Origin: Piscicola geometra
Lineage: Eukaryota > Annelida > Clitellata > Hirudinida > Piscicolidae
Assembly (NCBI GenBank): GCA_943735955.1
Contig: OX030962.1
Location: 3,104,610 to 3,168,609, forward strand
Direction of reading: 5' to 3'
Length of the DNA: 64,000 bases
Positions within the stretch are counted from its first letter, which is position 1; each line of letters begins with the position of its first letter. The position numbers and the translations under genes were made by a program. The notes beneath the pieces were generated by a model that worked only from the letters and a program-made list of their open reading frames with translations, ran no database searches and was not told the origin of the DNA. Shown here in pieces: positions 1-50,070 of this stretch.

Positions 1-1671
1 GTGGGATGGAGGGATGGGTGTCTGTGGGATAAAGGGGTGGGTGTCTGTGGGATGGAGGGGTGGGAGTCTGTGGGATGAAGGGGTGGGTCTGTGGGATGGA
101 GGGTGGGTGTCTGTGAGATAGAGGGGTGGGTGTCTGTGGGATGGAGGGGTGGAGGGGTGGGTGTCTGTGGGATGGAGAGGTGGGTGTCTGTGGGATGGAG
201 GGGTGGGTGTCTGAGATGAATGGAGGGTGGGTATCTGTGGGATGGACGGATGGAGGGGTGGGTGTCTGTGGGACGGAGGGGTGGGTGTCTGTGGGATGGA
301 GGGGTGGGTGTCTGTGAGATGGATGGAAGGTGGGTGTCTGTGAGATCGATGGATGGAGGGGTGGGTGTCTGTGAGATGAAGGGGTGGGTGTCTGTGGGAT
401 TGAGGGGTGGGTGTCTGTGGGATGGAGGGATGGAAGGTGGGTGTCTGTGGGATGGAGGGGTGGGTGGGTGTCTGTGGAATGGATGGATGGAGGGGTGGGT
501 GTCTGTGGGATGGAGGGGCGGGTGTCTGTGGGATGGAGAATTGGGTGTCTGTGGGATGGAAGGGTGAGTGTTTGTGGGATGGAGAGTGGGTGTCAGTGGG
601 ATGGATAGAGGGTGGGTGTCTGTGGGATGGATGGATGGAGGGGTGGGTGTCTGTGGGATGGAGGGGTGGGTGTCTGTGGGATTGAGGGGTGGGTGTCTGT
701 GGGATGGAGGGGTGGGTGTCTGTGGGATGGAGAGGTGGGTGTCTGTGGGATGGAGGAGTGAGTGTTTGTGGGATGGAGGGATGGGTGTCTGTGGGATGGA
801 GGGGTGGGTGTCTGTGGGATGGAGGGGTGGGTGTCTGTGGGATTGAGGGGTGGGTGTCTGTGGGATGGAGGGGTGGGTGTCTGTGGGATGGAGAGGTGGG
901 TGTCTGTGGGATGGAGGAGTGAGTGTTTGTGGGATGGAGGGATGGGTGTCTGTGGGATAAAGGGGTGGGTGTCTTTGGGATGGAGGGGTGGGAGTCTGTG
1001 GGATGAAGGGGTGGGTCTGTGGGATGGAGGGTGGGTGTCTGTGAGATAGAGGGGTGGGTGTCTGTGGGATGGAGGGGTGGGTGTCTGTGGGATGGAGAGG
1101 TGGGTGTCTGTGGGATGGAGGGGTGGGTGTCTGAGATGAATGGAGGGTGGGTATCTGTGGGATGGACGGATGGAGGGGTGGGTGTCTGTGGGACGGAGGG
1201 GTGGGTGTCTGTGGGATGGAGGGGTGGGTGTCTGTGAGATGGATGGAAGGTGGGTGTCTGTGAGATCGATGGATGGAGGGGTGGGTGTCTGTGAGATGAA
1301 GGGGTGGGTGTCTGTGGGATTGAGGGGTGGGTGTCTGTGGGATGGAGGGGTGGGTGTCTGTGGGATGGAGGGGTGAGTGTCTGTGAGATGGAGGGGTGGG
1401 TGTCTGTGGGATGGAGGGGTGGGTGTCTGTGAGATGGAGGGGTGGGTGTCTGTGGGATGGAGAAGTGGGTGTCTGTGGGATGGAGGGGTGGGTGTCTGTG
1501 GGATGGAGGGGTGGGTGTCTGTGGGATGAAGGGGTGGGTGTCTGTGGGATTGAGGTGTGGGTGTCTGTGGGATGGAGGGGTGGGTGTCTGTGGGATGGAG
1601 GGGTGGGTGTCTGTGGGATGGAGGGGAGGGTGTCTGTGGGATGGAGGGGTGGGTGTCTGTGAGATGGAGGG

Positions 1672-4540
1672 GTGGGTGTCTGTGGGATGGAGGAGTTGGT
1701 GTCTGTGGGATGGATAGAGGGTGGGTGTCTGTGGGACGGATGGACGGAGGGGTGGGTGTCTGTGGGATGTAGGGGTGGGTGTCTGTGGGATGGAGGGGAG
1801 GGTGTCTGTGGGATGGAAGGTGGGTGTCTGTGGGATGGAGGGGTGGGTGGGTGTCTGTGGAATGGATGGATAGAGGGGTGGGTGTCTGTGGAATGGATGG
1901 ATGGAGAGGTGGGTGTCTGTGGGATGTAGGGGCGGGTGTCTGTGGGATGGAGGAGTGGGTGTCTGTGGGATGGAGGGGTGAGTGTTTGTGGGATGGAGAG
2001 TGGGTGTCTGTGGGATGGATAGAGGGTGGGTGTCTGTGGGATGTATGGATGGAGGGGTGGGTGTCTGTGGGATGGAGGGGTGGGTGTCTGTGGGATGGAA
2101 GGTGGGTGTCTGTGGGATGGAGGGGTGGGTGGGTGTCTGTGGAATGGATGGATGGAGGGGTGGGTGTCTGTGGGATGAAAAGTAGGTGTCTGTGGGATGG
2201 AGGGGAGGGTGTCTGTGGGATGGAGGGTGGGTGTCTGTGGGATGGAGGGGTGGGTGTCTGTGGAATGGAGGGGTGGGTGTTTGTGGGATGGAAGGTGGGT
2301 GTCTGTGGGATGGAGGGTGGGTGTCTGTGGGATGGAGGGGTGGGTGTCTGTGGGATGGATGGATGGAGGGGTGGGTGTCTGTGGGATGGAGGGGTGGGTG
2401 TCTGTGGGATGGAGGGGAGGGTGTCTGTGGGATGGAGGGGTGGGTGTCTGTGAGATGGAGGGGTGGGTGTCTGTGGGATGGAGGAGTTGGTGTCTGTGGG
2501 ATGGATAGAGGGTGGGTGTCTGTGGGACGGATGGACGGAGGGGTGGGTGTCTGTGGGATGTAGGGGTGGGTGTCTGTGGGATGGAGGGGAGGGTGTCTGT
2601 GGGATGGAAGGTGGGTGTCTGTGGGATGGAGGGGTGGGTGGGTGTCTGTGGAATGGATGGATAGAGGGGTGGGTGTCTGTGGAATGGATGGATGGAGAGG
2701 TGGGTGTCTGTGGGATGTAGGGGCGGGTGTCTGTGGGATGGAGGAGTGGGTGTCTGTGGGATGGAGGGGTGAGTGTTTGTGGGATGGAGAGTGGGTGTCT
2801 GTGGGATGGATAGAGGGTGGGTGTCTGTGGGATGTATGGATGGAGGGGTGGGTGTCTGTGGGATGGAGGGGTGGGTGTCTGTGGGATGGAAGGTGGGTGT
2901 CTGTGGGATGGAGGGGTGGGTGGGTGTCTGTGGAATGGATGGATGGAGGGGTGGGTGTCTGTGGGATGAAAAGTAGGTGTCTGTGGGATGGAGGGAAGGG
3001 TGTCTGTGGGATGGAGGGTGGGTGTCTGTGGGATGGAGGGGTGGGTGTCTGTGGAATGGAGGGGTGGGTGTTTGTGGGATGGAAGGTGGGTGTCTGTGGG
3101 ATGGAGGGTGGGTGTCTGTGGGATGGAGGGGTGGGTGTCTGTGGGATGGATGGATGGAGGGGTGGGTGTCTGTGGGATGGAGGGGTGGGTGTTTGTGGGA
3201 TGGAAGGTGGGTGTCTGTGGGATCGATGGATGGAGGGGTCGGTGTCTGTGGGATGGAGGATAGGGTGTCTGTAAGATGGAGGATGGGTGTCTGTGGGATG
3301 GAGTGGTGAGTGTCTGTGGGATGGAGGAGTTGGTGTCTGTGGGATGGAGGGGTGGGTGTCTGTGGGATGGAGGAGTTGGTGTCTGTGGGATGGAGGGGTT
3401 GGTGTCTGTGGGATGGAGGGGTGGGTGTCTGTGGGATGGAGGGGTGGGTGTCTGTGGGATGAAGGAGTGGGTGTCTGTGGGATGGAGGGGTGAGTGTTTG
3501 TGGGATGGAGAGGTGGGTGTCTGTGGGATGGAGGGGTGGGAGTCTGTGGGATGGATGGATGGAGGGGTGGCTTTCTGTGGGATGGAGGGATGGGTGTCTG
3601 TGGGATGAAGGGGAGGGTGTCTGTGGGATGGAGGGTGGGTCTCTGTGGGATGGAGGAGTGGGTGTCTGTGTGATGAAGGGGAGGGTGTTTGTGGAATGGA
3701 GGGTGGGTATCTGTGGGATGGAGGGGTGGGTGTCTGTGAGATGGATGGAGGGTGGGTGTCTGTGGGAAGGATGGATGGAGTAGTCGGTGTCTGTGGAATG
3801 GAGGAGTGGGTGTTTGTGGGATGGAAGGTGGGTGTCTGTGGGATGGAGGGTGGGTGTCTGTGGGATGGAGGGGTGGGTGTCTGTGGGATGGATGGATGGA
3901 GGGGTGGGTGTCTGTGGGATGGAGGGGTGGGTGTTTGTGGGATGGAAGGTGGGTGTCTGTGGGATCGATGGATGGAGGGGTCGGTGTCTGTGGGATGGAG
4001 GATAGGGTGTCTGTAAGATGGAGGATGGGTGTCTGTGGGATGGAGTGGTGAGTGTCTGTGGGATGGAGGAGTTGGTGTCTGTGGGATGGAGGGGTGGGTG
4101 TCTGTGGGATGGAGGAGTTGGTGTCTGTGGGATGGAGGGGTTGGTGTCTGTGGGATGGAGGGGTGGGTGTCTGTGGGATGGAGGGGTGGGTGTCTGTGGG
4201 ATGAAGGAGTGGGTGTCTGTGGGATGGAGGGGTGAGTGTTTGTGGGATGGAGAGGTGGGTGTCTGTGGGATGGAGGGGTGGGAGTCTGTGGGATGGATGG
4301 ATGGAGGGTTGGCTTTCTGTGGGATGGAGGGATGGGTGTCTGTGGGATGAAGGGGAGGGTGTCTGTGGGATGGAGGGTGGGTCTCTGTGGGATGGAGGAG
4401 TGGGTGTCTGTGTGATGAAGGGGAGGGTGTTTGTGGAATGGAGGGTGGGTATCTGTGGGATGGAGGGGTGGGTGTCTGTGAGATGGATGGAGGGTGGGTG
4501 TCTGTGGGAAGGATGGATGGAGTAGTCGGTGTCTGTGGGA
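1672..4540. repeat. Nested duplications, offsets 791 and 742 bp
   Basis: Variant blocks at 1672, 1779, 1982 and 2186 recur at 2463, 2570, 2773 and 2977, an exact offset of 791 bp. Just to the right, blocks at 3276, 3287, 3490 and 3645 recur at 4018, 4029, 4232 and 4387, an offset of 742 bp. Copies differ by only a few substitutions. Neither offset is a multiple of 23 because variant units of 22, 27 and 31 bp lie inside the copies. These are duplications of many units at once and not single-unit slippage. Confidence 0.85.
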
Positions 4541-6066
4541 TGGAGGGGTGGGTGTCTGTGGGATGGAGGAGTTGGTGTCTGTGGGATGGAGGGGTGGGTG
4601 TCTGTGGGATGGAGGGGTGGGTGTCTGTGGGATGGAGGGGTGGGTGTCTGTGGGATGGAGGAGTTGGTGTCTGTGGGATGGAGGGGTGGGTGTCTGTGGG
4701 ATGGAGGGGTGGGTGTCTGTGGGATGGAGGGGTGGGTGTCTGTGGGATGGAGGGGTGGGTGTCTGTGGGATGGAGGGGTGAGTGTTTGTGGGATGGAGAG
4801 GTGGGTGTCTGTGGGATGGAGGGGTGGGAGTCTGTGGGATGGATGGATGGAGGGGTGGCTTTCTGTGGGATGGAGGGATGGGTGTCTGTGGGATGAAGGG
4901 GTGGGTGTCTGTGGGATGGAGGAGTTGGTGTCTGTGGAAGGAAGGGGTGGGTGTCTGTGGGATTGAGGGGTGGGTGTCTGTGAGATGGAGGGGTGGGTGT
5001 CTGTGGGATGGAGGGGTGGGTGTCTGTGGGATGGAGGGGTGAGTGTTTGTGGGATGGAGGGTGGGTGTCTGTGGGATGGATAGAGGGTGGGTGTCTGTGG
5101 GATGGATGGATAGAGGGATGGGTGTCTGTGGGATGGAGGGGTGGGTGACTGTGGGATGGAGGAGAGGGTGTCTGTGGGATGGAGGGTGGGTGTCTGTGGG
5201 ATGGAGGGGTGGGTGTCTGTGGGATGGAGGGGTGGGTGTCTGTGGGATGGAGGGGTGAGTGTCTGTGAGATGGAGGGGTGGGTGTCTGTGGGATGGAGGG
5301 GTGGGTGTCTGTGAGATGGAGGGGTGGGTGTCTGTGGGATGGAGAAGTGGGTGTCTGTGGGATGGAGGGGTGGGTGTCTGTGGGATGGAGGGGTGGGTGT
5401 CTGTGGGATGAAGGGGTGGGTGTCTGTGGGATTGAGGTGTGGGTGTCTGTGGGATGGAGGGGTGGGTGTCTGTGGGATGGAGGGGCGGGTGTCTGTGGGA
5501 TGGAAAAGTGGGTGTCTGTAGGATGGAGGAGTGAGTGTTTGTTTGATGGAGAGTGGGTGTCTGTGGGATGGATAGAGGGTGGGTGTCTGTGGGACGGATG
5601 GACGGAGGGGTGAGTGTCTGTGGGATGTAGGGGTGGGTGTCTGTGGGATGGAGGGGAGGGTGTCTGTGGGATGGAAGGTGGGTGTCTGTGGGATGGAGGG
5701 GTGGGTGGGTGTCTGTCGAATGGATGGATAGAGGGGTGGGTGTCTGTGGAATGGATGGATGGAGAGGTGGGTGTCTGTGGGATGTAGGGGCGGGTGTCTG
5801 TGGGATGGAGGAGTGGGTGTCTGTGGGATGGAGGGGTGAGTGTTTGTGGGATGGAGAGTGGGTGTCTGTGGGATGGATAGAGGGTGGGTGTCTGTGGGAT
5901 GTATGGATGGAGGGGTGGGTGTCTGTGGGATGGAGGGGTGGGTGTCTGTGGGATGGAGGGGTGGGTGTCTGTGGGATGGAAGGTGGGTGTCTGTGGGATG
6001 GAGGGGTGGGTGGGTGTCTGTGGAATGGATGGATGGAGGGGTGGGTGTCTGTGGGATGAAAAGTAG

Positions 6067-8210
6067 GTGTCTGTGGGATGGAGGGGAGGGTGTCTGTGGG
6101 ATGGAGGGTGGGTGTCTGTGGGATGGAGGGGTGGGTGTCTGTGGAATGGAGGGGTGGGTGTTTGTGGGATGGAAGGTGGGTGTCTGTGGGATGGAGGGTG
6201 GGTGTCTGTGGGATGGAGGGGTGGGTGTCTGTGGGATGGATGGATGGAGGGGTGGGTGTCTGTGGGATGGAGGGGTGGGTGTTTGTGGGATGGAAGGTGG
6301 GTGTCTGTGGGATCGATGGATGGAGGGGTCGGTGTCTGTGGGATGGAGGATAGGGTGTCTGTAAGATGGAGGATGGGTGTCTGTGGGATGGAGTGGTGAG
6401 TGTCTGTGGGATGGAGGAGTTGGTGTCTGTGGGATGGAGGGGTGGGTGTCTGTGGGATGGAGGAGTTGGTGTCTGTGGGATGGAGGGGTTGGTGTCTGTG
6501 GGATGGAGGGGTGGGTGTCTGTGGGATGGAGGGGTGGGTGTCTGTGGGATGAAGGAGTGGGTGTCTGTGGGATGGAGGGGTGAGTGTTTGTGGGATGGAG
6601 AGGTGGGTGTCTGTGGGATGGAGGGGTGGGAGTCTGTGGGATGGATGGATGGAGGGGTGGCTTTCTGTGGGATGGAGGGATGGGTGTCTGTGGGATGAAG
6701 GGGAGGGTGTCTGTGGGATGGAGGGTGGGTCTCTGTGGGATGGAGGAGTGGGTGTCTGTGTGATGAAGGGGAGGGTGTTTGTGGAATGGAGGGTGGGTAT
6801 CTGTGGGATGGAGGGGTGGGTGTCTGTGAGATGGATGGAGGGTGGGTGTCTGTGGGAAGGATGGATGGAGTAGTCGGTGTCTGTGGGATGGAGGGGTGGG
6901 TGTCTGTGGGATGGAGGAGTTGGTGTCTGTGGGATGGAGGGGTGGGTGTCTGTGGGATGGAGGAGTTGGTGTCTGTGGGATGGAGGGGTGGGTGTCTGTG
7001 GGATGGAGGGGTGGGTGTCTGTGGGATGGAGGGGTGGGTGGGTGTCTGTGGAATGGATGGATAGAGGGGTGGGTGTCTGTGGAATGGATGGATGGAGAGG
7101 TGGGTGTCTGTGGGATGTAGGGGCGGGTGTCTGTGGGATGGAGGAGTGGGTGTCTGTGGGATGGAGGGGTGAGTGTTTGTGGGATGGAGAGTGGGTGTCT
7201 GTGGGATGGATAGAGGGTGGGTGTCTGTGGGATGTATGGATGGAGGGGTGGGTGTCTGTGGGATGGAGGGGTGGGTGTCTGTGGGATGGAGGGGTGGGTG
7301 TCTGTGGGATGGAAGGTGGGTGTCTGTGGGATGGAGGGGTGGGTGGGTGTCTGTGGAATGGATGGATGGAGGGGTGGGTGTCTGTGGGATGGAAAGTAGG
7401 TGTCTGTGGGATGGAGGGGAGGGTGTCTGTGGGATGGAGGGTGGGTGTCTGTGGGATGGAGGGGTGGGTGTCTGTGGAATGGAGGGGTGGGTGTTTGTGG
7501 GATGGAAGGTGGGTGTCTGTGGGATGGAGGGTGGGTGTCTGTGGGATGGAGGGGTGGGTGTCTGTGGGATGGATGGATGGAGGGGTGGGTGTCTGTGGGA
7601 TGGAGGGGTGGGTGTTTGTGGGATGGAAGGTGGGTGTCTGTGGGATCGATGGATGGAGGGGTCGGTGTCTGTGGGATGGAGGATAGGGTGTCTGTAAGAT
7701 GGAGGATGGGTGTCTGTGGGATGGAGTGGTGAGTGTCTGTGGGATGGAGGAGTTGGTGTCTGTGGGATGGAGGGGTGGGTGTCTGTGGGATGGAGGAGTT
7801 GGTGTCTGTGGGATGGAGGGGTTGGTGTCTGTGGGATGGAGGGGTGGGTGTCTGTGGGATGGAGGGGTGGGTGTCTGTGGGATGAAGGAGTGGGTGTCTT
7901 TGGGATGGAGGGGTGAGTGTTTGTGGGATGGAGAGGTGGGTGTCTGTGGGATGGAGGGGTGGGAGTCTGTGGGATGGATGGATGGAGGGGTGGCTTTCTG
8001 TGGGATGGAGGGATGGGTGTCTGTGGGATGAAGGGGAGGGTGTCTGTGGGATGGAGGGTGGGTCTCTGTGGGATGGAGGAGTGGGTGTCTGTGTGATGAA
8101 GGGGAGGGTGTTTGTGGAATGGAGGGTGGGTATCTGTGGGATGGAGGGGTGGGTGTCTGTGAGATGGATGGAGGGTGGGTGTCTGTGGGAAGGATGGATG
8201 GAGTAGTCGG
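6067..8210. repeat. Duplication, offset 1333 bp
   Basis: Blocks beginning at 6067, 6366, 6377 and 6580 recur at 7400, 7699, 7710 and 7913. The same variant order also appears near 2977-3490, so this is a third and fourth use of a module already present at the left of the window. The copies carry small private differences, such as GTCTTTGGG near 7899. Confidence 0.8.
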
Positions 8211-11200
8211 TGTCTGTGGGATGGAGGGGTGGGTGTCTGTGGGATGGAGGAGTTGCTGTCTGTGGGATGGAGGGGTGGGTGTCTGTGGGATGGAGGAGTT
8301 GGTGTCTGTGGGATGGAGGGGTGGGTGTCTGTGGGATGGAGGGGTGGGTGTCTGTGGGATGGAGGGGTGGGTGTCTGTGGGATGGAGGAGTTGGTGTCTG
8401 TGGGATGGAGGGGTGGGTGTCTGTGGGATGGAGGAGTTGGTGTCTGTGGGATGGAGGGGTGGGTGTCTGTGGGATGGAGGGGTGGGTGTCTGTGGGATGG
8501 AGGGGTGGGTGTCTGTGGGATGGAGGGGTGGGTGTCTGTGGGATGGAGGGGTGAGTGTTTGTGGGATGGAGAGGTGGGTGTCTGTGGGATGGAGGGGTGG
8601 GAGTCTGTGGGATGGATGGATGGAGGGGTGGCTTTCTGTGGGATGGAGGGATGGGTGTCTGTGGGATGAAGGGGAGGGTGTCTGTGGGATGGAGGGTGGG
8701 TCACTGTGGGATGGAGGAGTGGGTGTCTGTGTGATGAAGGGGAGGGTGTTTGTGGAATGGAGGGTGGGTATCTGTGGGATGGAGGGGTGGGTGTCTGTGA
8801 GATGGATGGAGGGTGGGTCTCTGTGGGAAGGATGGATGGAGTAGTCGGTGTCTGTGGGATGGAGGGGTGGGTGTCTGTGGGATGGAGGAGTTGGTGTCTG
8901 TGGGATGGAGGGGTGGGTGTCTGTGGGATTAAGGAGTTGGTGTCTGTGGGATGGAGGGGTGGGTGTCTGTGGGATGGAGGGGTGGGTGTCTGAGGGATGG
9001 AGGGGTGGGTGTCTGTGGGATGGAGGGGTGGGTGTCTGAGGGATGGAGGGGTGGGTGTCTGTGGGATGGAGGGGTGGGTGTCTGTGGGATGGATGGAGGG
9101 TGGGTGTCTGTGGGATGGAGGAGTGAGTGTTTGTGGGATGGAGGGGTTGGTGTCTGTGGGATGGAGGGGTGGGTGTCTGTGGGATGGAGGGGTGGGTGTC
9201 TGTGGGATGAAGGAGTGGGTGTCTGTGGGATGGAGGGGTGAGTGTTTGTGGGATGGAGAGGTGGGTGTCTGTGGGATGGAGGGGTGGGAGTCTGTGGGAT
9301 GGATGGATGGAGGGGTGGCTTTCTGTGGGATGGAGGGATGGGTGTCTGTGGGATGAAGGGGAGGGTGTCTGTGGGATGGAGGGTGGGTCTCTGTGGGATG
9401 GAGGAGTGGGTGTCTGTGTGATGAAGGGGAGGGTGTTTGTGGAATGGAGGGTGGGTATCTGTGGGATGGAGGGGTGGGTGTCTGTGAGATGGATGGAGGG
9501 TGGGTGTCTGTGGGAAGGATGGATGGAGTAGTCGGTGTCTGTGGGATGGAGGGGTGGGTGTCTGTGGGATGGAGGAGTTGGTGTCTGTGGGATGGAGGGG
9601 TGGGTGTCTGTGGGATGGAGGAGTTGGTGTCTGTGGGATGGAGGGGTGGGTGTCTGTGGGATGGAGGGGTGGGTGTCTGTGGGATGGAGGGGTGGGTGTC
9701 TGTGGGATGGAGGAGTTGGTGTCTGTGGGATGGAGGGGTGGGTGTCTGTGGGATGGAGGAGTTGGTGTCTGTGGGATGGAGGGGTGGGTGTCTGTGGGAT
9801 GGAGGGGTGGGTGTCTTTGGGATGGAGGGGTGGGTGTCTGTGGGATGGAGGGGTGGGTGTCTGTGGGATGGAGGGGTGAGTGTTTGTGGGATGGAGAGGT
9901 GGGTGTCTGTGGGATGGAGGGGTGGGAGTCTGTGGGATGGATGGATGGAGGGGTGGCTTTCTGTGGGATGGAGGGATGGGTGTCTGTGGGATGAAGGGGA
10001 GGGTGTCTGTGGGATGGAGGGTGGGTCACTGTGGGATGGAGGAGTGGGTGTCTGTGTGATGAAGGGGAGGGTGTTTGTGGAATGGAGGGTGGGTATCTGT
10101 GGGATGGAGGGGTGGGTGTCTGTGAGATGGATGGAGGGTGGGTGTCTGTGGGAAGGATGGATGGAGTAGTCGGTGTCTGTGGAATGGAGGGGTGGGTGTC
10201 TGTGGGATGGAGGAGTTGGTGTCTGTGGGATGGAGGGGTGGGTGTCTGTGGGATTAAGGAGTTGGTGTCTGTGGGATGGAGGGGTGGGTGTCTGTGGGAT
10301 GGAGGGGTGGGTGTCTGAGGGATGGAGGGGTGGGTGTCTGTGGGATGGAGGGGTGGGTGTCTGTGGGATGGATGGAGGGTGGGTGTCTGTGGGAAGGATG
10401 GATGGAGTAGTCGGTGTCTGTGGGATGGAGGGGTGGGTGTCTGTGGGATGGAGGAGTTGGTGTCTGTGGGATGGAGGGGTGGGTGTCTGTGGGATGGAGG
10501 AGTTGGTGTCTGTGGGATGGAGGGGTGGGTGTCTGTGGGATGGAGGGGTGGGTGTCTGTGGGATGGAGGGGTGGGTGTCTGTGGGATGGAGGGGTGGGTG
10601 TCTGTGGGATGAAGGGGTGGGTGTCTGTGGGATGGAGGGGTGAGTGTTTGTGGGATGGAGAGGTGGGTGTCTGTGGGATGGAGGGTGGGTGTCTCTAAGA
10701 TAGAGGGGTGAGTGTTTGTGGGATGGAGAGGTGGGTGTCTGTGGGATGGAGGGTGGGTGTCTCTAAGATAGAGGGGTGGGTGTCTGTGGGATGGAGGGGT
10801 GGGTGTCTGTGGGATGGAGGGGTGGGTGTCTGTGGGATGGAGGGGTGGGTGTCTGTGGGATGAAGGGGTGGGTGTCTGTGAGATGGATGAAGGGTGGGTG
10901 TCTGTGGGATGGATGGTTGGAGGGGTGGGTTTCTGTGGGATGGAGGGATGGGTGTCTGTGGGATGGAGGGGAGGGTGTCTGTGGGATGGAGGGTGGGTCT
11001 CTGTGGGATGGAAGAGTGGGTGTCTGTGTGATGAAGGGGTGGGTGTTTGTGGAATGAAGGGTGGGTGTCTGTGGGATGGAGGGGTGGGTGTCTGTGAGAT
11101 GGAGGAGTTGGTGTCTGTGGAATGAAGGGGTGGGTGTCTGTGGGATTGAGGAGTGGGTGTCTGTGGGATGGAGGGGTGGGTGTCTGTGGGATGGAGGGGT

Positions 11201-17200: not shown

Positions 17201-18700
17201 ATGGATGGAGGGGTGGGTGTCTGTGGGATGGAAAGTAGGTGTCTGTGAGATGGAGGGGTGGGTGTCTGTGGGATGGAGAAGTGGGTGTCTGTGGGATGGA
17301 GAAGTGGGTGTCTGTGGGATGGAGGGGTGGGTGTCTGTGGGATGGAGGGGTGGGTGTCTGTGGGATGGAGGGGTGGGTGTCTGTGGGATGGAGGGGTGGG
17401 TGTCTGTGGGATGGAAAGTAGGTGTCTGTGGGATGGAGGGCAGGGTGTCTGTGGGATGGAGGGTGGGTGTCTGTGGGATGGATAGAGGGTGGGTGTCTGT
17501 GGGATGGATGGATAGAGGGATGGGTGTCTGTGGGATGGAGGGGTGGGTGACTGTGGGATGGAGGAGAGTGTGTCTGTGGGATGGAGGGTGGGTGTCTGTG
17601 GGATGGAGGGGTGGGTGTCTGTGGGATGGAGGGGTGGGTGTCTGTGGGATGGAGGGGTGAGTGTCTGTGAGATGGAGGGGTGGGTGTCTGTGGGATGGAG
17701 GGGTGGGTGTCTGTGAGATGGAGGGGTGGGTGTCTGTGGGATGGAGAAGTGGGTGTCTGTGGGATGGAGGGGTGGGTGTCTGTGGGATGGAGGGGTGGGT
17801 GTCTGTGGGATGGAGGGGTGGGTGTCTGTGGGATTGAGGTGTGGGTGTCTGTGGGATGGAGGGGTGGGTGTCTGTGGGATGGAGGGGCGGGTGTCTGTGG
17901 GATGGAAAAGTGGGTGTCTGTAGGATGGAGGAGTGAGTGTTTGTGGGATGGAGAGTGGGTGTCTGTGGGATGGATAGAGGGTGGTTGTCTGTGGGACGGA
18001 TGGACGGAGGGGTGGGTGTCTGTGGGATGGAGGGGTGGGTGTCTGTGGGATGGAGGGGAGGGTGTCTGTGGGATGGAAGGTGGGTGTCTGTGGGATGGAG
18101 GGGTGGGTGGGTGTCTGTGGAATGGATGGATAGAGGGGTGGGTGTCTGTGGAATGGATGGATGGAGATGTGGGTGTCTGTGGGATGTAGGGGCGGGTGTC
18201 TGTGGGATGGAGGAGTGGGTGTCTGTGGGATGGAGGGGTGAGTGTTTGTGGGATGGAGAGTGGGTGTCTGTGGGATGGATAGAGGGTGGGTGTCTGTGGG
18301 ATGGATGGATGGAGGGGTGGGTGTCTGTGGGATGGAGGGGTGGGTGTCTGTGGGATGGAGGGGTGGGTGTCTGTGGGATGGAAGGTGGGTGTCTGTGGGA
18401 TGGAGGGGTGGGTGGGTGTCTGTGGAATGGATGGATGGAGGGGTGGGTGTCTGTGGGATGGAAAGTAGGTGTCTGTGAGATGGAGGGGTGGGTGTCTGTG
18501 GGATGGAGAAGTGGGTGTCTGTGGGATGAAGGGGTGGGTGTCTGTGGGATGGAGGGGTGAGTGTTTGTGGGATGGAGAGGTGGGTGTCTGTGGGATGGAG
18601 GGTGGGTGTCTCTAAGATAGAGGGGTGAGTGTTTGTGGGATGGAGAGGTGGGTGTCTGTGGGATGGAGGGTGGGTGTCTCTAAGATAGAGGGGTGGGTGT
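7950..18700. repeat. 5459-bp higher-order unit in two tandem copies
   Basis: Many independent variant landmarks repeat at an exact offset of 5459 bp: 8068/13527, 8175/13634, 8706/14165, 9393/14852, 10031/15490, 10776/16235, 11061/16520, 11602/17061, 12221/17680 and 12783/18242. The rare GTGGGTCACTG variant at 8702 recurs at 14161, and the CTCTAAGATAG variant near 13150 recurs near 18609. Copy 1 runs from about 7950 to about 13410, where copy 2 begins. Inside each copy there is an older 1325-bp duplication (8068/9393, 8706/10031). Confidence 0.9.
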
Positions 18701-24000: not shown

Positions 24001-24189
24001 GGATGGAGAAGTGGGTGTCTGTGGGATGGAGGGGTGGGTGTCTGTGGGATGGAGGGGTGGGTGTCTGTGGTATGGAGGGGTGGGTGTCTGTGGGATTGAG
24101 GTGTGGGTGTCTGTGGGATGGAGGGGTGGGTGTCTGTAGGATGGAGGGGCGGGTGTCTGTGGGATGGAAAAGTGGGTGTCTGTGGGATG

Positions 24190-38100: not shown

Positions 38101-40990
38101 TGGAATGGAGGGTGGGTGTCTGTGGGATGGAGGGGTGGGTGTCTGTGGGATGGAGGGGTGGGTGTCTGTGGGATGGAGGGGTATGTGTCTGTGGGATGGA
38201 GGGGTGGGTGTCTGTGGGATGGAGGGGTGGGTGTCTGTGGGATGGAGGGGTGGGTGTCTGTGGGATTGAGGTGTGGGTGTCTGTGGGATGGAGGGGTGGG
38301 TGTCTGTGGGATGGAGGGGTGGGTGTCTGTGGGATGGAGGGTGGGTGTCTGTGGGATGGATGGAGGGTGGGTGTCTGTGGGATGGATGGATGGAGGGGTG
38401 GGTGTCTGTGGGATGGAGATGTGGGTGTCTGTGGGATGGAGGATAGGGTGTCTGTGGGATGGAGGGTGGGTGTCTGTGGGATGGAGTAGTGAGTGTCTGT
38501 GAGAATGAGGGGTGGGTGTCTGTGAGATGGAGGGGTGGGTGTCTGTGGGATGGAGGAGTTGGTGTCTGTGGGATGGAGGGGTGGGTGTCTGTGGGATGGA
38601 GGGGTGGGTGTCTGTGAGATGGAGGGGTGGGTGTCTGTGGGATGGAGAAGTGGGTGTCTGTGGGATGGAGGGGTGGGTGTCTGTGGGATGGAGGGGTGGG
38701 TGTCTGTGGGATGGAGGGGTGGGTGTCTGTGGGATTGAGGTGTAGGTGTCTGTGGGATGGAGGGGTGGGTGTCTGTGGGATGGAGGGGTGGGTGTCTGTG
38801 AGATGGATGGAAGGTGGGTGTCTGTGAGATGAATGGATGGAGGGGTGGGTGTCTGTGAGATGGAGGGGTGGGTGTCTGTGGGATGGAGGGGTGGGTGTCT
38901 GTGAGATGGATGGAGGGTGGGTGTCTGTGGGATGGATGGATGGAGTAGTCGGTGTCTGTGGGATGGAGGGGTGGGTGTCTGTGGGATGGAGGGGTGGGTG
39001 TCTGTGGGATGGAGAGGTGGGTGTCTGTGGGATGGAAGGGTGGGTGTCTGTGGGATGGAGGGGTGGGTGTCTGTGAGATGGATGGAAGGTGGGTGTCTGT
39101 GAGATGGATGGATGGAGGGGTGGGTGTCTGTGAGATGGAGGGGTGGGTGTCTGTGGGATGGAGGATAGGGTGTCTGTGGGATGGAGGGTGGGTGTCTGTG
39201 AGATGGAGGGGTGGGTGTCTGTGGGATGGAGGGGTGGGTGTCTGTGAGATGGATGGAGGGTGGGTGTCTGTGGGATGGATGGATGGAGTAGTCGGTGTCT
39301 GTGGGATGGAGGAGTGGGTGTCTGTGGGATGGAGGGGTTGGTGTCTGTGGGATGGAGAGGTGGGTGTCTGTGGGATGGAAGGGTGGGTGTCTGTGGGATG
39401 GAGGGGTGGGTGTCTGTGAGATGGATGGAAGGTGGGTGTCTGTGAGATGGATGGATGGAGGGGTGGGTGTCTGTGAGATGGAGGGGTGGGTGTCTGTGGG
39501 ATGGAGGGTTGGGTGTCTGTGGGATGGATGGATGGAGTAGTCGGTGTCTGTGGGATGGAGGGGTGGGTGTCTGTGGGATGGAGGGGTGGGTGTCTGGTGG
39601 ATGGAGGGTTGGGTGTCTGTGGGATGGAGGAGTGGGTGTCTGTGGGATGGAGGGGTGGGTGTCTGTGGGATGGAGGGGTGAGTGTTTGTGGGATGGAGGG
39701 GAGGGTGTCTGTGGAATGGAGGGTGGGTGTCTGTGGGATGGAGGGGTGGGTGTCTGTGGGATGGAGGGGTGGGTGTCTGTGGGATGGAGGGGTGGGTGTC
39801 TGTGGGATGGAGGGGTGGGTGTCTGTGGGATGGAGGGGAGGGTGTCTGTGGAATGGAGGGTGGGTGTCTGTGGGATGGAGGGGTGGGTGTCTGTGGGATG
39901 GAGGGGTGGGTGTCTGTGGGATGGAGGGGTATGTGTCTGTGGGATGGAGGGGTGGGTGTCTGTGGGATGGAGGGGTGGGTGTCTGTGGGATGGAGGGGTG
40001 GGTGTCTGTGGGATTGAGGTGTGGGTGTCTGTGGGATGGAGGGGTGGGTGTCTGTGGGATGGAGGGGTGGGTGTCTGTGGGATGGAGGGTGGGTGTCTGT
40101 GGGATGGATGGAGGGTGGGTGTCTGTGGGATGGATGGATGGAGGGGTGGGTGTCTGTGGGATGGAGATGTGGGTGTCTGTGGGATGGAGGATAGGGTGTC
40201 TGTGGGATGGAGGGTGGGTGTCTGTGGGATGGAGTAGTGAGTGTCTGTGAGAATGAGGGGTGGGTGTCTGTGAGATGGAGGGGTGGGTGTCTGTGGGATG
40301 GAGGAGTTGGTGTCTGTGGGATGGAGGGGTGGGTGTCTGTGGGATGGAGGGGTGGGTGTCTGTGAGATGGAGGGGTGGGTGTCTGTGGGATGGAGAAGTG
40401 GGTGTCTGTGGGATGGAGGGGTGGGTGTCTGTGGGATGGAGGGGTGGGTGTCTGTGGGATGGAGGGGTGGGTGTCTGTGGGATTGAGGTGTAGGTGTCTG
40501 TGGGATGGAGGGGTGGGTGTCTGTGGGATGGAGGGGTGGGTGTCTGTGAGATGGATGGAAGGTGGGTGTCTGTGAGATGAATGGATGGAGGGGTGGGTGT
40601 CTGTGAGATGGAGGGGTGGGTGTCTGTGGGATGGAGGGGTGGGTGTCTGTGAGATGGATGGAGGGTGGGTGTCTGTGGGATGGATGGATGGAGTAGTCGG
40701 TGTCTGTGGGATGGAGGGGTGGGTGTCTGTGGGATGGAGGGGTGGGTGTCTGTGGGATGGAGAGGTGGGTGTCTGTGGGATGGAAGGGTGGGTGTCTGTG
40801 GGATGGAGGGGTGGGTGTCTGTGAGATGGATGGAAGGTGGGTGTCTGTGAGATGGATGGATGGAGGGGTGGGTGTCTGTGAGATGGAGGGGTGGGTGTCT
40901 GTGGGATGGAGGGGTGGGTGTCTGTGGGATGGATGGATGGAGTAGTCGGTGTCTGTGGGATGGAGGGGTGGGTGTCTGTGGGATGGAGGG
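35126..40990. repeat. Duplications with offsets 2612 and 1748 bp
   Basis: Blocks at 35126, 35322, 35900 and 36015 recur at 37738, 37934, 38512 and 38627 (offset 2612). Blocks at 37512, 37547, 37738, 38512 and 38837 recur at 39260, 39295, 39486, 40260 and 40585 (offset 1748). A rare GTCTGGTGG variant marks each copy (35233, 37845, 39593). Confidence 0.85.
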
Positions 40991-43900
40991 GTAGGGTGTC
41001 TGGTGGATGGAGGGGTGGGTGTCTGTGGGATGGAGGAGTGGGTGTCTGTGGGATGGAGGGGTGGGTGTCTGTGGGATGGAGGGGTGAGTGTTTGTGGGAT
41101 GGAGGGGAGGGTGTCTGTGGAATGGAGGGTGGGTGTCTGTGGGATGGAGGGGTGGGTGTCTGTGGGATGGAGGGGTGGGTGTCTGTGGGATGGAGGGATG
41201 GGTGTCTGTGGGATGGAGGGGTGGGTGTCTGTGGGATGGAGGGGAGGGTGTCTGTGGAATGGAGGGTGGGTGTCTGTGGAATGGAGGGTGGGTGTCTGTG
41301 GGATGGAGGGGTGGGTGTCTGTGGGATGGAGGGGTGGGTGTCTGTGGGATGGAGGGGTGGGTGTCTGTGGGATGGAGGGGTGGGTGTCTGTGGGATGGAG
41401 GGGAGGGTGTCTGTGGAATGGAGGGTGGGTGTCTGTGGGATGGAGGGGTGGGTGTCTGTGGGATGGAGGGGTGGGTGTCTGTGGGATGGAGGGGTATGTG
41501 TCTGTGGGATGGAGGGGTGGGTGTCTGTGGGATGGAGGGGTGGGTGTCTGTGGGATGGAGAGGTGGGTGTCTGTGGGATGGAGGGGTGGGTGTCTGTGGG
41601 ATGGAGGGGTGGGTGTCTGTGGGATGGAGGGTGGGTGTCTGTGGGATGGATGGAGGGTGGGTGTCTGTGGGATGGATGGATGGAGGGGTGGGTGTCTGTG
41701 GGATGGAGATGTGGGTGTCTGTGGGATGGAGGATAGGGTGTCTGTGGGATGGAGGGTGGGTGTCTGTGGGATGGAGTAGTGAGTGTCTGTGGGATGGAGG
41801 GGTGGGTGTCTGTGAGATGGAGGGGTGGGTGTCTGTGGGATGGAGGAGTTGGTGTCTGTGGGATGGAGGGGTGGGTGTCTGTGGGATGGAGAAGTGGGTG
41901 TCTGTGGGATGGAGGGGTGGGTGTCTGTGGGATGGAGGGGTGGGTGTCTGTGGGATGGAAGGGTGGGTGTCTGTGGGATTGAGGTGTAGGTGTCTGTGGG
42001 ATGGAGGGGTGGGTGTCTGTGGGATGGAGGGGTGGGTGTCTGTGAGATGGATGGAAGGTGGGTGTCTGTGGGATGGATGGATGGAGTAGTCGTTGTCTGT
42101 GGGATGGAGGGGTGGGTGTCTGTGGGATGGAGGGGTGGGTGTCTGTGGGATGGAAGGGTGGGTGTCTGTGGGATGGAGGGGAGGGTGTCTGTGGAATGGT
42201 GGGTGGGTGTCTGTGGGATGGAGGGGTGGGTGTCTGTGGGATGGAGGGGTGGGTGTCTGTGGGATGGAGGGGTATGTGTCTGTGGGATGGAGGGGTGGGT
42301 GTCTGTGGGATGGAGGGGTGGGTGTCTGTGGGATGGAGGGGTGGGTGTCTGTGGGATTGATGTGTGGGTGTCTGTGGGATGGAGGGGTGGGTGTCTGTGG
42401 GATGGAGGGGTGAGTGTTTGTGGGATGGAGAAAAGGGTGTCTGTGGGATGGAGGGGTGGGTGTCTGTGAGATGGATGGAGGGTGGGTGTCTGTGGGATGG
42501 AGGGGTGGGTGTCTGTGGGATGGAGGGGTGAGTGTCTGTGAGATGGAGGGGTGGGTGTCTGTGGGATGGAGGGGTGGGTGTCTGTGAGATGGAGGGGTGG
42601 GTGTCTGTGGGATGGAGAAGTGGGTGTCTGTGGGATGGAGGGGTGGGTGTCTGTGGGATGGAGGGGTGGGTGTCTGTGGGATGGAGGGGTGGGTGTCTGT
42701 GGGATTGAGGTGTAGGTGTCTGTGTGATGGAGGGGTGGGTGTCTGTGGGATGGAGGGGTGGGTGTCTGTGAGATGGATGGAAGGTGGGTGTCTGTGAGAT
42801 GGATGGATGGAGGGGTGGGTGTCTGTGAGATGGAGGGGTGGGTGTCTGTGGGATGAAGGGGTGGGTGTCTGTGAGATGGATGGAGGGTGGGTGTCTGTGG
42901 GATGGATGGATGGAGTAGTCGGTGTCTGTGGGATGGAGGGGTGGGTGTCTGTGGGATGGAGGGGTGGGTGTCTGTGGGATGGAAGGGTGGGTGTCTGTGA
43001 GATGGATGGATGGAGGGGTGGGTGTCTGTGAGATGGAGGGGTGGGTGTCTGTGGGATGGAGGGGTGGGTGTCTGTGAGATGGATGGAGGGTGGGTGTCTG
43101 TGGGATAGATGGATGGAGTAGTCGGTGTCTGTGGGATGGAGGGGAGGGTGTCTGTGGAATGGAGGGTGGGTGTCTGTGGGATGGAGGGGTGGGTGTCTGT
43201 GGGATGGAGGGGTGGGTGTCTGTGGGATGGAGAGGTGGGTGTCTGTGGGATGGAGGGGTGGGTGTCTGTGGGATGGAGGGGAGGGTGTCTGTGGAATGAA
43301 GGGTGGGTGTCTGTGGGATGGAGGGGTGGGTGTCTGTGGGATGGAGGGGTGGGTGTCTGTGGGATGGAGGGGTATGTGTCTGTGGGATGGAGGGGTGGGT
43401 GTCTGTGGGATGGAGGGGTGGGTGTCTGTGGGATGGAGGGGTGGGTGTCTGTGGGATTGAGGTGTGGGTGTCTGTGGGATGGAGGGGTGGGTGTCTGTGG
43501 GATGGAGGGGTGGGTGTCTGTGGGATGGAGGGTGGGTGTCTGTGAGATGGATGGAGGGTGGGTGTCTGTGGGATGGATGGATGGAGGGGTGGGTGTCTGT
43601 GGGATGGAGATGTGGGTGTCTGTGGGATGGAGGATAGGGTGTCTGTGGGATGGAGGGTGGGTGTCTGTGGGATGGAGTAGTGAGTGTCTGTGGGATGGAG
43701 GGGTGGGTGTCTGTGAGATGGAGGGGTGGGTGTCTGTGGGATGGAGGAGTTGGTGTCTGTGGGATGGAGGGGTGGGTGTCTGTGGGATGGAGGGGTGGGT
43801 GTCTGTGGGATGGAGGAGTGGGTGTCTGTGGGATGGAGGGGTGAGTGTTTGTGGGATGGAGAGGTGGGTGTCTGTGGGATGGAGGGGTTGGTGTCTGTGA

Positions 43901-46499
43901 GATGGATGGAGGGTGGGTGTCTGTGGGATGGAGGGGTGGGTGTCTGTGGGATGGAGGGGTGAGTGTTTGTGGGATGGAGAAAAGGGTGTCTGTGGGATGG
44001 AGAAAAGGGTGTCTGTGGGATGGAGGGGTGGGTGTCTGTGAGATGGATGGAGGGTGGGTGTCTGTGGGATGGAGGGGTGGGTGTCTGTGGGATGGAGGGG
44101 TGAGTGTCTGTGAGATGGAGGGGTGGGTGTCTGTGGGATGGAGGGGTGGGTGTCTGTGAGATGGAGGGGTGGGTGTCTGTGGGATGGAGAAGTGGGTGTC
44201 TGTGGGATGGAGGGGTGGGTGTCTGTGGGATGGAGGGGTGGGTGTCTGTGGGATGGAAGGGTGGGTGTCTGTGGGATTGAGGTGTAGGTGTCTGTGGGAT
44301 GGAGGGGTGGGTGTCTGTGGGATGGAGGGGTGGGTGTCTGTGAGATGGATGGAAGGTGGGTGTCTGTGGGATGGATGGATGGAGTAGTCGGTGTCTGTGG
44401 GATGGAGGGGTGGGTGTTTGTGGGATGGAGAAGTGGGTGTCTGTGGGATGGAGGGATGGGTGTCTGTGAGATGGATGGTGGGTGTGTGTCTGTGGGATGG
44501 ATGGATGGAGGGGTGGGTGTCTGTGGGATGGAGGGGTGGGTGTCTGTGGGATGGAGGGGTGGGTGTCTGTGGGATGGAGGGGTGGGTGTCTGTGGGATGG
44601 AGGGGTGAGTGTTTTTGGGATGGAGAAGGGGGTGTCTGTGGGATGGAGGGGTGGGTGTCTGTGAGATGGATGGAGGGTGGGTGTCTGTGGGATGGAGGGG
44701 TGGGTGTCTGTGGGATGGAGGGGTGAGTGTCTGTGAGATGGAGGGGTGGGTGTCTGTGGGATGGAGGGGTGGGTGTCTGTGAGATGGAGGGGTGGGTGTC
44801 TGTGGGATGGAGAAGTGGGTGTCTGTGGGATGGAGGGGTGGGTGTCTGTGGGATGGAGGGGTGGTTGTCTGTGGGATGGAAGGGTGGGTGTCTGTGGGAT
44901 TGAGGTGTAGGTGTCTGTGGGATGGAGGGGTGGGTGTCTGTGGGATGGAGGGGTGGGTGTCTGTGAGATGGATGGAAGGTGGGTGTCTGTGAGATGGATG
45001 GATGGAGGGGTGGGTGTCAGTGAGATGGAGGGGTGGGTGTCTGTGGGATGAAGGGGTGGGTGTCTGTGAGATGGATGGAGGGTGGGTGTCTGTGGGATGG
45101 ATGGATGGAGTAGTCGGTGTCTGTGGGATGGAGGGGTGGGTGTCTGTGGGATGGAGGGGTGGGTGTCTGTGGGATGGAGGGGTGGGTGTCTGTGGGATGG
45201 AAGGGTGGGTGTCTGTGGGATGGAGGGGTGGGTGTCTGTGAGATGGAGGGGTGGGTGTCTGTGGGATGGAGGGGTGGGTGTCTGTGGGATGGAGGGGTGA
45301 GTGTTTGTGGGATGGAGAGGTGGGTGTCTGTGGGATGGAGGGGTGGGTGTCTGTGAGATGGATGGAGGGTGGGTGTCTGTGAGATGGATGGATGGAGGGG
45401 TGGGTGTCTGTGAGATGGAGGGGTGGGTGTCTGTGGGATGGAGGGGTGGGTGTCTGTGGGATGGATGGATGGAGTAGTCGGTGTCTGTGGGATGGACGGG
45501 TGGGTGTCTGTGGGATGGAGGAGTGGGTGTCTGGTGGATGGAGGGGTGGGTGTCTGTGGGATGGAGGAGTGGGTGTCTGTGGGATGGAGGGGTGGGTGTC
45601 TGTGGGATGGAGGGGTGAGTGTTTGTGGGATGGAGGGGAGGGTGTCTGTGGAATGGAGGGTGGGTGTCTGTGGGATGGAGGGGTGGGTGTCTGTGGGATG
45701 GAGGGGTGGGTTTCTGTGGGATGGAGGGGTGGGTGTCTGTGGGATGGAGGGGTGGGTGTCTGTGGGATGGAGGGGTGGGTGTCTGTGGGATGGAAGGGTG
45801 GGTGTCTGTGGGATGGAGGGGTGGGTGTCTGTGAGATGGATGGAAGGTGGGTGTCTGTGAGATGGATGGATGGAGGGGTGGGTGTCTGTGAGATGGAGGG
45901 GTGGGTGTCTGTGGGATGGAGGGGTGGGTGTCTGTGGGATGGATGGATGGAGTAGTCGGTGTCTGTGGGATGGAGGGGTGGGTGTCTGTGGGATGGAGGA
46001 GTGGGTGTCTGGTGGATGGAGGGGTGGGTGTCTGTGGGATGGAGGAGTGGGTGTCTGTGGGATGGAGGGGTGGGTGTCTGTGGGATGGAGGGGTGAGTGT
46101 TTGTGGGATGGAGGAGAGGGTGTCTGTGGAATGGAGGGTGGGTGTCTGTGGGATGGAGGGGTGGGTGTCTGTGGGATGGAGGGGTGGGTGTCTGTGGGAT
46201 GGAGGGGTGGGTGTCTGTGGGATGGAGGAGTGGGTGTCTGTGGGATGGAGGGGTGGGTGTCTGTGAGATGGATGGAGGGTGGGTGTCTGTGGGATGGAGG
46301 GGTGGGTGTCTGTGGGATGGAGGGGTGAGTGTTTGTGGGATGGAGAAGTGGGTGTCTGTGGGATGGAGGGATGGGTGTCTGTGAGATGGATGGTGGGTGT
46401 GTGTCTGTGGGATGGATGTATGGAGGGGTGGGTGTCTGTGGGATGGAGGGGTGGGTGTCTGTGGGATGGAGGGGTGGGTGTCTGTGGGATGGAGGGGTG

Positions 46500-48950
46500 G
46501 GTGTCTGTGGGATGGAAGGGTGGGTGTCTGTGGGATGGAGGGGTGGGTGTCTGTGAGATGGATGGAAGGTGGGTGTCTGTGAGATGGATGGATGGAGGGG
46601 TGGGTGTCTGTGAGATGGAGGGGTGGGTGTCTGTGGGATGGAGGGGTGGGTGTCTGTGGGATGGATGGATGAAGTAGTCGTTGTCTGTGGGATGGAGGGG
46701 TGGGTATCTGTGGGATGAAGGGGTGGGTGTCTGGTGGATGGAGGGGTGGGTATCTGTGGGATGGAGGGGTGGGTGTCTGTGGGATGGAAGGGTGGGTGTC
46801 TGTGGGATGGAGGGGTGGGTGTCTGTGGGATGGAGGGGTGGGTGTCTGTGGGATAGAGGGGTGGGTGTCTGTGGGATTGAGGGGTGGGTGTCTGTGGGAT
46901 GGAAGGGTGGGTGTCTGTGGGATGGAGGGGTGGGTGTCTGTGGGATGGAGGAGTGAGTGTTTGTGGGATGGAGGGGTGGGTGTCTGTGGGATGGAGGGGT
47001 GGGTGTCTGTGGGATGGAGGGGTGGGTGTCTGTGGGATGGAGGGGTGAGTGTTTGTGGGATGGAGGGTGGGTGTCTGTGGGATGGAGGGATGGGTGTCTG
47101 TTAGATGGATGGAGGGTGGGTGTCTGTGGGATGGAGGGGTGGGTGTTTGTGGAATGGAGGGTGGGTGTCTGTGGGATGGAAGGGTGGGTGTCTGTGAAAT
47201 GGATGGAGGGTGGGTGTCTGTGGGATGGATGGATGGAGGGGTCGGTGTCTGTGGGATGGAGGGGTGGGTGTCTGTGGGATGGAGGAGTGAGTGTTTGTGG
47301 GATGGAGGGGTGGGTGTCTGTGGGATGAAGGGGTGGGTGTTTGTGGAATGGAGGGTGGGTGTCTGTGGGATGTAGGGGTGGGTGTCTGTGAGATGGATGG
47401 AAGGTGGGTGTCTGTGGGATGGATGGATGGAGAGGTCGGTGTCTGTGGGATGGAGGGGTGGGTGTCTGTGGGATTGAGGGGTGGGTGTCTGTGGGATGGA
47501 GGGGTGGGTGTCTGTGGGATGGAGGGGTGAGTGTTTGTGGGATGGAGGGTGGGTGTCTGTGGGATGGAGGGATGGGTGTCTGTGAGATGGATGGAGGGTG
47601 GGTGTCTGTGGGATAGAGGGGTGGGTGTCTGTGGGATTGAGGGGTGGGTGTCTGTGGGATGGAGGAGTGAGTGTTTGTGGGATGGAGGGGTGGGTGTCTG
47701 TGGGATGGAGGGGTGGGTGTCTGTGGGATGGAAGGGTGGGTGTCTGTGGGATGGAGGGGTGGGTGTCTGTGAGATGGATGGAAGGTGGGTGTCTGTGAGA
47801 TGGATGGATGGAGGGGTGGGTGTCTGTGAGATGGAGGGGTGGGTGTCTGTGGGATGGAGGGGTGGGTGTCTGTGGGATGGATGGATGAAGTAGTCGTTGT
47901 CTGTGGGATGGAGGGGTGGGTGTCTGTGGGATGAAGGGGTGGGTGTCTGGTGGATGGAGGGGTGGGTATCTGTGGGATGGAGGGGTGGGTGTCTGTGGGA
48001 TGGAAGGGTGGGTGTCTGTGGGATGGAGGGGTGGGTGTCTGTGGGATGGAGGGGTGGGTGTCTGTGGGATAGAGGGGTGGGTGTCTGTGGGATTGAGGGG
48101 TGGGTGTCTGTGGGATGGAAGGGTGGGTGTCTGTGGGATGGAGGGGTGGGTGTCTGTGGGATGGAGGAGTGAGTGTTTGTGGGATGGAGGGGTGGGTGTC
48201 TGTGGGATGGAGGGGTGGGTGTCTGTGGGATGGAGGGGTGGGTGTCTGTGGGATGGAGGGGTGAGTGTTTGTGGGATGGAGGGTGGGTGTCTGTGGGATG
48301 GAGGGATGGGTGTCTGTTAGATGGATGGAGGGTGGGTGTCTGTGGGATGGAGGGGTGGGTGTTTGTGGAATGGAGGGTGGGTGTCTGTGGGATGGAAGGG
48401 TGGGTGTCTGTGAAATGGATGGAGGGTGGGTGTCTGTGGGATGGATGGATGGAGGGGTCGGTGTCTGTGGGATGGAGGGGTGGGTGTCTGTGGGATGGAG
48501 GAGTGAGTGTTTGTGGGATGGAGGGGTGGGTGTCTGTGGGATGAAGGGGTGGGTGTTTGTGGAATGGAGGGTGGGTGTCTGTGGGATGTAGGGGTGGGTG
48601 TCTGTGAGATGGATGGAAGGTGGGTGTCTGTGGGATGGATGGATGGAGAGGTCGGTGTCTGTGGGATGGAGGGGTGGGTGTCTGTGGGATTGAGGGGTGG
48701 GTGTCTGTGGGATGGAGGGGTGGGTGTCTGTGGGATGGAGGGGTGAGTGTTTGTGGGATGGAGGGTGGGTGTCTGTGGGATGGAGGGATGGGTGTCTGTG
48801 AGATGGATGGAGGGTGGGTGTCTGTGGGATAGAGGGGTGGGTGTCTGTGGGATTGAGGGGTGGGTGTCTGTGGGATGGAGGAGTGAGTGTTTGTGGGATG
48901 GAGGGGTGGGTGTCTGTGGGATGGAGGGGTGGGTGTCTGTGGGATGGAGG
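46500..48950. repeat. 1216-bp tandem duplication near the right edge of the array
   Basis: Landmarks 46681, 46957, 47049, 47291 and 47531 recur at 47897, 48173, 48265, 48507 and 48747, all 1216 bp apart. The copies are nearly identical, including the rare TGTTAGATGG variant; one visible difference is GGGTATCTG near 46704 against GGGTGTCTG near 47920. Similarity ends near 48950. Confidence 0.88.
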
Positions 48951-49589
48951 GGTGGGTGTCTGTGGGATGGAGGGGTGAGTGTTTGTGGGATGGAGGGTGG
49001 GTGTCTGTGGGATGGAGGGGTGGGTGTCTGTGAGATGGATGGAGGGTGGGTGTCTGTGGGATGGATGGATGGAGGGGTGGGTGTCTGTGGGATAGAGGGG
49101 TGGGTTTCTGTGGGATGGAGGGGTGGGTGTGTGTGGGATTGAGGAGTGGGTATCTGTGGGATTGAGGGGTGGGTGTCTGTGAGATGGATGGAGGGGTTGG
49201 TGTCCCTAGGATGGAGGGGTGGGTGTCTGTGGGATGAAGGGGTGAGTGTTTGTGGGATGGAGGGTGGGTGTCTGTGGGATGGAGGAGTGGGTGTCTGTGA
49301 GATGGATGGAGGGTGGGTGTCTGTGGGATGGATGGATGGAGGGGTGGGTTTCTGTGGGATGAAAGGATGGGTGTCTGTGGGATGGAGGGGAGGGTGTCTG
49401 TGGGATGGAGGGGTTGGTGTGTGTGGGATAGAGGGGTGGGTGTCTGTGGGATGGATGGAGGGGTGGGTGTCTGTGGGATGGAGAGGCGGGTGTCTGTAGG
49501 ATGGAGGGGTGAAATGGAGATGCTTAATTCAGACTGAAATTATGCAAGTAACCTTGAAGCCATTATTATAATGTTCAATATTTTTATTA

Positions 49590-49890
<301 letters not shown>

Positions 49891-49904
49891 AGCGGTGGAA
49901 CAAC

Positions 49905-50070
49905 CTGCGGCAGGCTGGTACTTGATGCAAGCGTTCAAGGAGGAGGGACAGTCGATTGTGAAGTTGTCGTTGGTGCTGCAGTCGAGGCAGTTGTGGCATC
50001 TCACTCCCCCACACCGAGAAGGCCACAGCAGCAGCAGCAGCAGAGTGCACTGCAAGATGGATGCATGCAT
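49905..50070 (-). CDS. Ly6/uPAR-like secreted or GPI-anchored protein, first coding exon (partial)
   Basis: Three-finger (Ly6/uPAR) proteins are small disulfide-rich extracellular domains, often GPI-anchored, that bind receptors or channels. The exon starts at ATG 50070 and gives 55 residues plus one base. Residues 1-22 form a signal peptide (MHASILQC, then a Leu-rich core ending WPSRCGG). The mature start RCHNC, then CLDC and a later CPSSLNAC, give the Cys spacing of the N-terminal half of a Ly6 domain. NFT is a possible N-glycosylation site. The exon ends CCGCAG/GTTG (GT at 49904-49903, phase 1); early-domain introns are common in this family. The remaining cysteines and any GPI signal are absent here and should lie to the left, in or beyond the minisatellite. 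It could instead be a stranded gene fragment. Family call by motif; no specific orthologue recognised. Confidence 0.7.

Follow-up and report, generated by a model that had tools for sequence, protein, structure and literature searches.

A 65-kb predicted intron in a Ly6/uPAR-type gene of Piscicola geometra, nearly all of it a minisatellite that resembles its own 3' splice site

The described systems nearest to the locus reported here are the "mirages" of amphioxus and the gigantic introns of Drosophila Y-linked genes. Mirages consist of tandem units built from an intron-exon boundary, many of which carry splice signals, with regular splicing reported as undisturbed. In the amphioxus globin gene BflGb6 the 3' end of an intron and the start of the next exon are duplicated in 3-6 units of 150-160 bp, and the units of the Adh3 mirage measure 10-72 bp. 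The Drosophila Y genes kl-3 and kl-5 have satellite-filled gigantic introns with megabases of simple satellites such as AATAT (PMC6508621). We analysed a window of 64,000 nucleotides from Piscicola geometra (C8:3104610-3168609; genome of 171 Mb in 66 contigs) together with 200 kb of sequence further to its left, 264 kb in total, in which a giant minisatellite lies downstream of the first coding exon of a predicted Ly6/uPAR-type gene on the minus strand. Very probably, this is an intact-looking gene of the Ly6/uPAR superfamily in which tandem duplication of the intron's own 3' splice-site region has expanded the domain-splitting phase-1 intron to 65,157 bp.

The array is closest in kind to the mirages and closest in make-up to the Drosophila Y introns. 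As in mirages, its units span an intron-exon boundary: most carry the acceptor, and the start of exon 2 recurs in two exact and three one-mismatch versions. Unlike those mirages, it extends over 64.8 kb, with ~2,800 units that measure 23 bp and are almost all intronic. The intron resembles those of kl-3 and kl-5 in being almost wholly tandem repeat; it differs in its acceptor-like unit and in its size of 65 kb, short of the megabase scale, and we do not class it with them. Among the titles and abstracts returned by our searches of an open-licence library we found no report of an acceptor-unit array of such size.

The part of the window occupied by the minisatellite is a single array with the plus-strand unit GTGGGATGGAGGGGTGGGTGTCT, which on the sense (RNA-like) strand reads ACACCCACCCCTCCATCCCACAG, a pyrimidine-rich stretch followed by CAG. 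The array continues for 15,253 bp beyond the left edge of the window and totals 64,764 bp, or 99.4% of the predicted intron. Tandem Repeats Finder scored it at 45,643 (period 23) and 64,310 (period 46), which excludes chance as its origin. The sequence-only reading of this stretch had placed a G-quadruplex-forming repeat downstream of exon 1, and had offered two alternatives, a gene spanning more than 50 kb of repeat or an array that had split and killed the gene. The array and exon 1 are not in contact: 393 bp of mostly CTA repeat lie between them. The G-quadruplex description applies to one strand: 1,069 non-overlapping motifs cover 43% of the array, all on the plus strand, which is the template of the Ly6-type gene, but a scan of the whole array found none on the RNA-like strand. 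Coordinates of these features and of others in the window are collected in Table 1.

Table 1. Features of the predicted Ly6/uPAR-type gene and of the rest of the window (window positions unless marked C8)
Feature	Position	Strand	Basis or remark
Minisatellite, part inside the window	1-49511	-	23-bp unit; runs on to C8:3089357, then predicted acceptor and exon 2
Opening 393 nt of the predicted intron	49512-49904	-	mainly (CTA)n in sense orientation; lacks the G/T-richness of most sampled introns
Predicted 5' splice site CGCAG/GTTGTT	49899-49904	-	phase 1
Exon 1, the first coding exon: signal-peptide-like start, then Cys 1-5 in the first half of a Ly6/uPAR domain	49905-50070	-	translation, Pfam CD59
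Exon 2: second half of Ly6 domain	C8:3089151-3089356 (window -15458 to -15253)	-	directly at the left edge of the array
Reverse transcriptase	59018-60439	-	non-LTR retrotransposon remains
Endonuclease	61292-62227	-	non-LTR retrotransposon remains
Reverse transcriptase	62420-63511	+	non-LTR retrotransposon remains

Exon 1 (166 bp) translated without a stop as MHASILQ...NACIKYQPAA plus one extra base, leaving it in phase 1. Its N-terminus is signal-peptide-like, judged by eye from the translation, and it contains five domain cysteines. Pfam CD59 matched exon 1 over profile positions 6-53 of 127 (E 8e-4, 19.5 bits against a curated cut-off of 33.9), and a search of the genome with the same profile returned exon 1 itself (E 5.35) as the sole match. 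The open translation, the CD59 match and the GTTGTT donor agree with the minus-strand half-domain exon and phase-1 donor that the sequence-only reading had proposed. It had also expected the missing half downstream on the minus strand, as a phase-1 exon with the remaining cysteines, a CN ending and a glycosylphosphatidylinositol (GPI) signal, and such an exon was found 15 kb left of the window. Exon 2 (206 bp), which starts in phase 1, has five cysteines, contains CVCFSHLCN and has a hydrophobic tail before its stop. It reads in frame if the acceptor is the one at the junction ...CCCACAG/AC AGC GAC TCA AGC GGC.... The tail, short and read by eye, is a putative GPI signal.

Joined in phase 1 to exon 1, exon 2 reads DSDSSGFEDGVVFSKGCYAGKEAGCRMSDIPSHGRRWACVCFSHLCNSALTVAAAEWSLIVAVVLVVR followed by a stop. 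The predicted joined protein of 123 residues has ten domain cysteines, five from each exon, ending in LCN, plus another two within the part that resembles a signal peptide; the order of the ten is one that we take to be that of a three-finger domain. A scan of both strands of the 264 kb for the cysteine pattern with a phase-1 acceptor gave two hits, exon 2 and a low-complexity cysteine run, and the same scan of 20 Markov-simulated sequences gave two hits altogether. Pfam QVR (Quiver) matched exon 2 alone weakly (E 0.069) over positions 46-86 of 86, the second half of the profile, and none of six constructs with a shuffled exon 2 joined to exon 1 gave a QVR match. QVR therefore speaks for exon 2 and CD59 for exon 1, with all scores below the Pfam cut-offs.

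The repeat unit, read as RNA, ends in ...CCCCTCCATCCCACAG, which is the predicted 3' splice site of the intron itself. The sense strand of the array contains 2,496 CAG trinucleotides, the real acceptor included, and 1,924 copies of CCCACAGACA, with no AGGT and no GTRAG. The pyrimidine run of the last unit, at 11 nt, is longer than that ahead of most CAGs. The 20-nt sequence of this unit occurs 67 times in the intron (66 besides itself), so sequence alone cannot single out the real site. The first ten bases of exon 2, ACAGCGACTC, are repeated exactly at two places in the array, each in register with a CAG, at 100 and 629 nt upstream of the true junction. The junction also recurs 23-30 kb away in three versions with one mismatch each. 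Whether the array took up the edge of the exon or gave rise to it, exon 2 was already attached to the array during its growth. Allowing up to two mismatches, the searched genome sequence gave 1,848 forward matches to the unit, every one of them within the array, and a satellite imported from elsewhere is unlikely given a unit so nearly unique to it. The only other occurrence found was a reverse match at C11:3821010-3821070, a fragment some two units long in the opposite orientation, which is possibly a repair-templated insertion.

Most likely, the array grew in place from the acceptor, as a giant version of an amphioxus mirage, and slippage or unequal exchange may have driven that growth. Tandem duplication of the 3' splice-site region would lengthen the intron and leave the authentic acceptor as the last unit, against exon 2. 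The whole array would be transcribed with the gene as C-rich RNA, in which thousands of acceptor-like sites would be present with no good donor-like ones, so that the donor of exon 1 would be the only useful one. The partner of this donor would then be the last acceptor, selected because it lies beside exon 2 and not for its own sequence. Recursive splicing through the array was considered and rejected, as the array has no AGGT.

A QVR search of the genome gave eight matches, most of which spanned only one part of the domain (profile ranges 1-49, 1-53, 1-41 and 1-42; 45-86, 41-86 and 30-86; and one of 1-74). A search with PF00021 (UPAR_LY6) gave one weak match, on C14, which proved to be a useful related exon, for a total of nine related exons whose splice sites were picked by eye from all GT and AG. 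A phase-1 donor lay 19-31 nt past Cys5 in all six related first-half exons, compared with 25 nt in the array gene, and a phase-1 acceptor lay 23-29 nt ahead of Cys6 in all three related second-half exons. Exon 2 was compared with two of these three (those on C8 and C3; the third is on C14) and matched C8:3930883-3931008, on its own contig, with a BLASTP E of 1e-5, a score reached by none of 2,000 shuffles. Exon 1 matched the related first-half exon on C14 (E 0.006; 1/2,000 shuffles reached the score). With the ten-cysteine pattern, the homology to related exons and the phase-1 split, the predicted protein appears to be a member of the Ly6/uPAR superfamily. It shares ten cysteines, the CN ending and a phase-1 intron within the domain with proteins of the CD59/Quiver kind, but differs from them in its scores below the Pfam cut-offs and in the putative nature of its short GPI signal; judged by its profile scores, it is classed as neither Pfam QVR nor CD59 proper.

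Composition at intron ends was assessed from 31 exons sampled among 147 kinase matches in the genome, 20 chosen on fixed criteria (absence of a stop, a start within the domain and a short open frame) and 11 more, with boundaries set by a simple score that left 29 acceptors and 31 donors usable. GC skew was negative ahead of 26/29 acceptors (mean -0.48) and positive past 26/31 donors (mean +0.52; Mann-Whitney 4e-9), and with the splice signals left out the counts were 22/29 and 24/31 (p 2e-7). The first 20 exons, binned without boundary picking, had skews of -0.42 and +0.54 over the 100 bp nearest the exon, which were gone by ~200 bp; over 30-400 bp from the exon there was no difference (p 0.55), and the effect is confined to sequence close to the exon. 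G/T-rich intron starts and A/C-rich intron ends are a strong compositional feature of the sampled kinase exons. The A/C-rich end of the giant intron follows this rule, whereas its start (A 31, C 37, G 2, T 30 per cent) departs from it.

Lin et al., in Genome Research in 2016, reportedly described introns with GT repeats and AC repeats that are bridged by RNA pairing. The sampled P. geometra introns resemble these in starting G/T-rich and ending A/C-rich, but the giant intron starts C-rich, and bridging of its ends by RNA was rejected, with a donor-acceptor duplex of -0.9 kcal/mol. The mean duplex energy of the sampled introns (-30.6) equalled that of shuffles of the same composition (-31.7), and pairing of their ends is therefore a matter of composition only. 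Tandem Repeats Finder placed arrays no more than 100 nt from the acceptor in 4/20 exons and from the donor in 10/20, which supports no claim of general array growth at acceptors.

Several observations weigh against a functional two-exon gene spanning the array. Transcription and splicing of the gene are predictions from its sequence, and the donor GTTGTT is weak, in a flank without the G/T-rich stretch usual in sampled introns, although GTT-type donors are also present among those picked for the kinase exons. The joined protein scored below the Pfam cut-offs for both QVR (17.5 of 27.3 bits) and CD59 (14.8 of 33.9 bits, E 0.024). QVR still gave 17.3 bits in one of two trials with exon 1 shuffled, and this score is therefore no evidence that both exons belong together. 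No homolog turned up when the spliced protein was compared with a protein database, and the 43 weak matches of a PDB search (best E 0.2, mostly STING) were judged to be chance. Neither exon was among the eight QVR matches in the genome. Exon 2 has 47 nt ahead of Cys6 as against 23-29 in its relatives, and it did not match the second-half exon on C3 (737/2,000 shuffles reached the score). Beyond exon 2 there is a strongly G/T-rich flank (C8:3088610-3089150), with a GTGAGG donor within the last codons, so the C-terminus may sit in a further exon, possibly to the left.

Several of these points would also fit an array that silenced the gene and left two relics no longer spliced together. The ~2,495 acceptor-like decoys, the 65 kb of G-quadruplex-prone template, the weak donor, and the lack of a protein-database homolog all lean that way. 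We nevertheless regard silencing as unlikely, as exons of 166 and 206 bp have kept all ten cysteines without stops or frameshifts, and their position and phase agree with those of relatives. Of the two alternatives in the sequence-only reading, a gene spanning the array is favoured over a gene killed by it because both exons are open, the position and phase of the intron match the family, and the array holds copies of the exon 2 junction.

The length of the array could instead have been inflated in assembly, with a true intron that is much shorter. An exact 120-mer that recurs within the array begins at 46,605 of its 64,644 start positions, and a lag of 5,459 bp is preferred. This is as expected from recent segmental duplication in the array, which gives the same picture inside minisatellites, though an assembly error could look alike. 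There is no run of N in the array, and we consider an artefact of this kind quite unlikely. Very unlikely, in our estimate, is that exon 2 comes from another Ly6 gene and that the gene of exon 1 has lost its second exon or has it elsewhere. The QVR score is independent of exon 1 and the genome holds several separate Ly6-type exons, but strand, order, complementary halves and phase all fit at the two edges of one array, and no other credible second half was found in the scanned part of the 200 kb to the left. It is highly improbable that the array is partly coding, as a giant His/Pro/Thr-rich exon on the RNA-like strand: in its three frames the longest open stretches reach 6,033, 3,389 and 4,972 codons, but every frame is open because this strand is poor in stop-making bases (G 4%, T 12.5%), which makes openness no sign of coding.

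If the gene spanning the array is spliced as predicted, ~2,500 near-identical acceptor look-alikes would be passed before the real one in a single natural gene, providing a test of whether a 3' splice site is chosen by the site itself or by its position beside the exon. The mirage concept would also come to cover arrays of thousands of units and not just a few, and an intron would be shown able to grow from its own signal while the gene survives. More tentatively, the array may represent a self-propagating splice acceptor, in which what replicates is an entire 3' splice-site cassette, made harmless by the lack of donors and by positional choice of the last acceptor; we find this possible but doubtful. 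Were it true, splicing now and then to units further upstream would produce a ladder of isoforms, and the array RNA could also hold 3' splice-site factors. Of the 2,495 decoy acceptors (native site subtracted), 191 would keep the native C-terminus in frame and add His/Pro/Thr-rich repeats.

Elsewhere in the window, a head-to-head neighbour on the plus strand (51800-53700) contains exons of what is, by eye, a probable four-helix membrane protein. Its introns contain C-rich tandem repeats. Two arrays, one with a 36-bp unit (52723-53531) and one of CAT (52019-52131), stop no more than ~10 bp from predicted acceptors. A Pfam MgtE_N match on the plus strand (52571-54331; 30.4 bits, cut-off 25.9) coincides with the translation of the 36-bp repeat and is in all likelihood spurious. 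Remains of non-LTR retrotransposons occupy 59018-63511.

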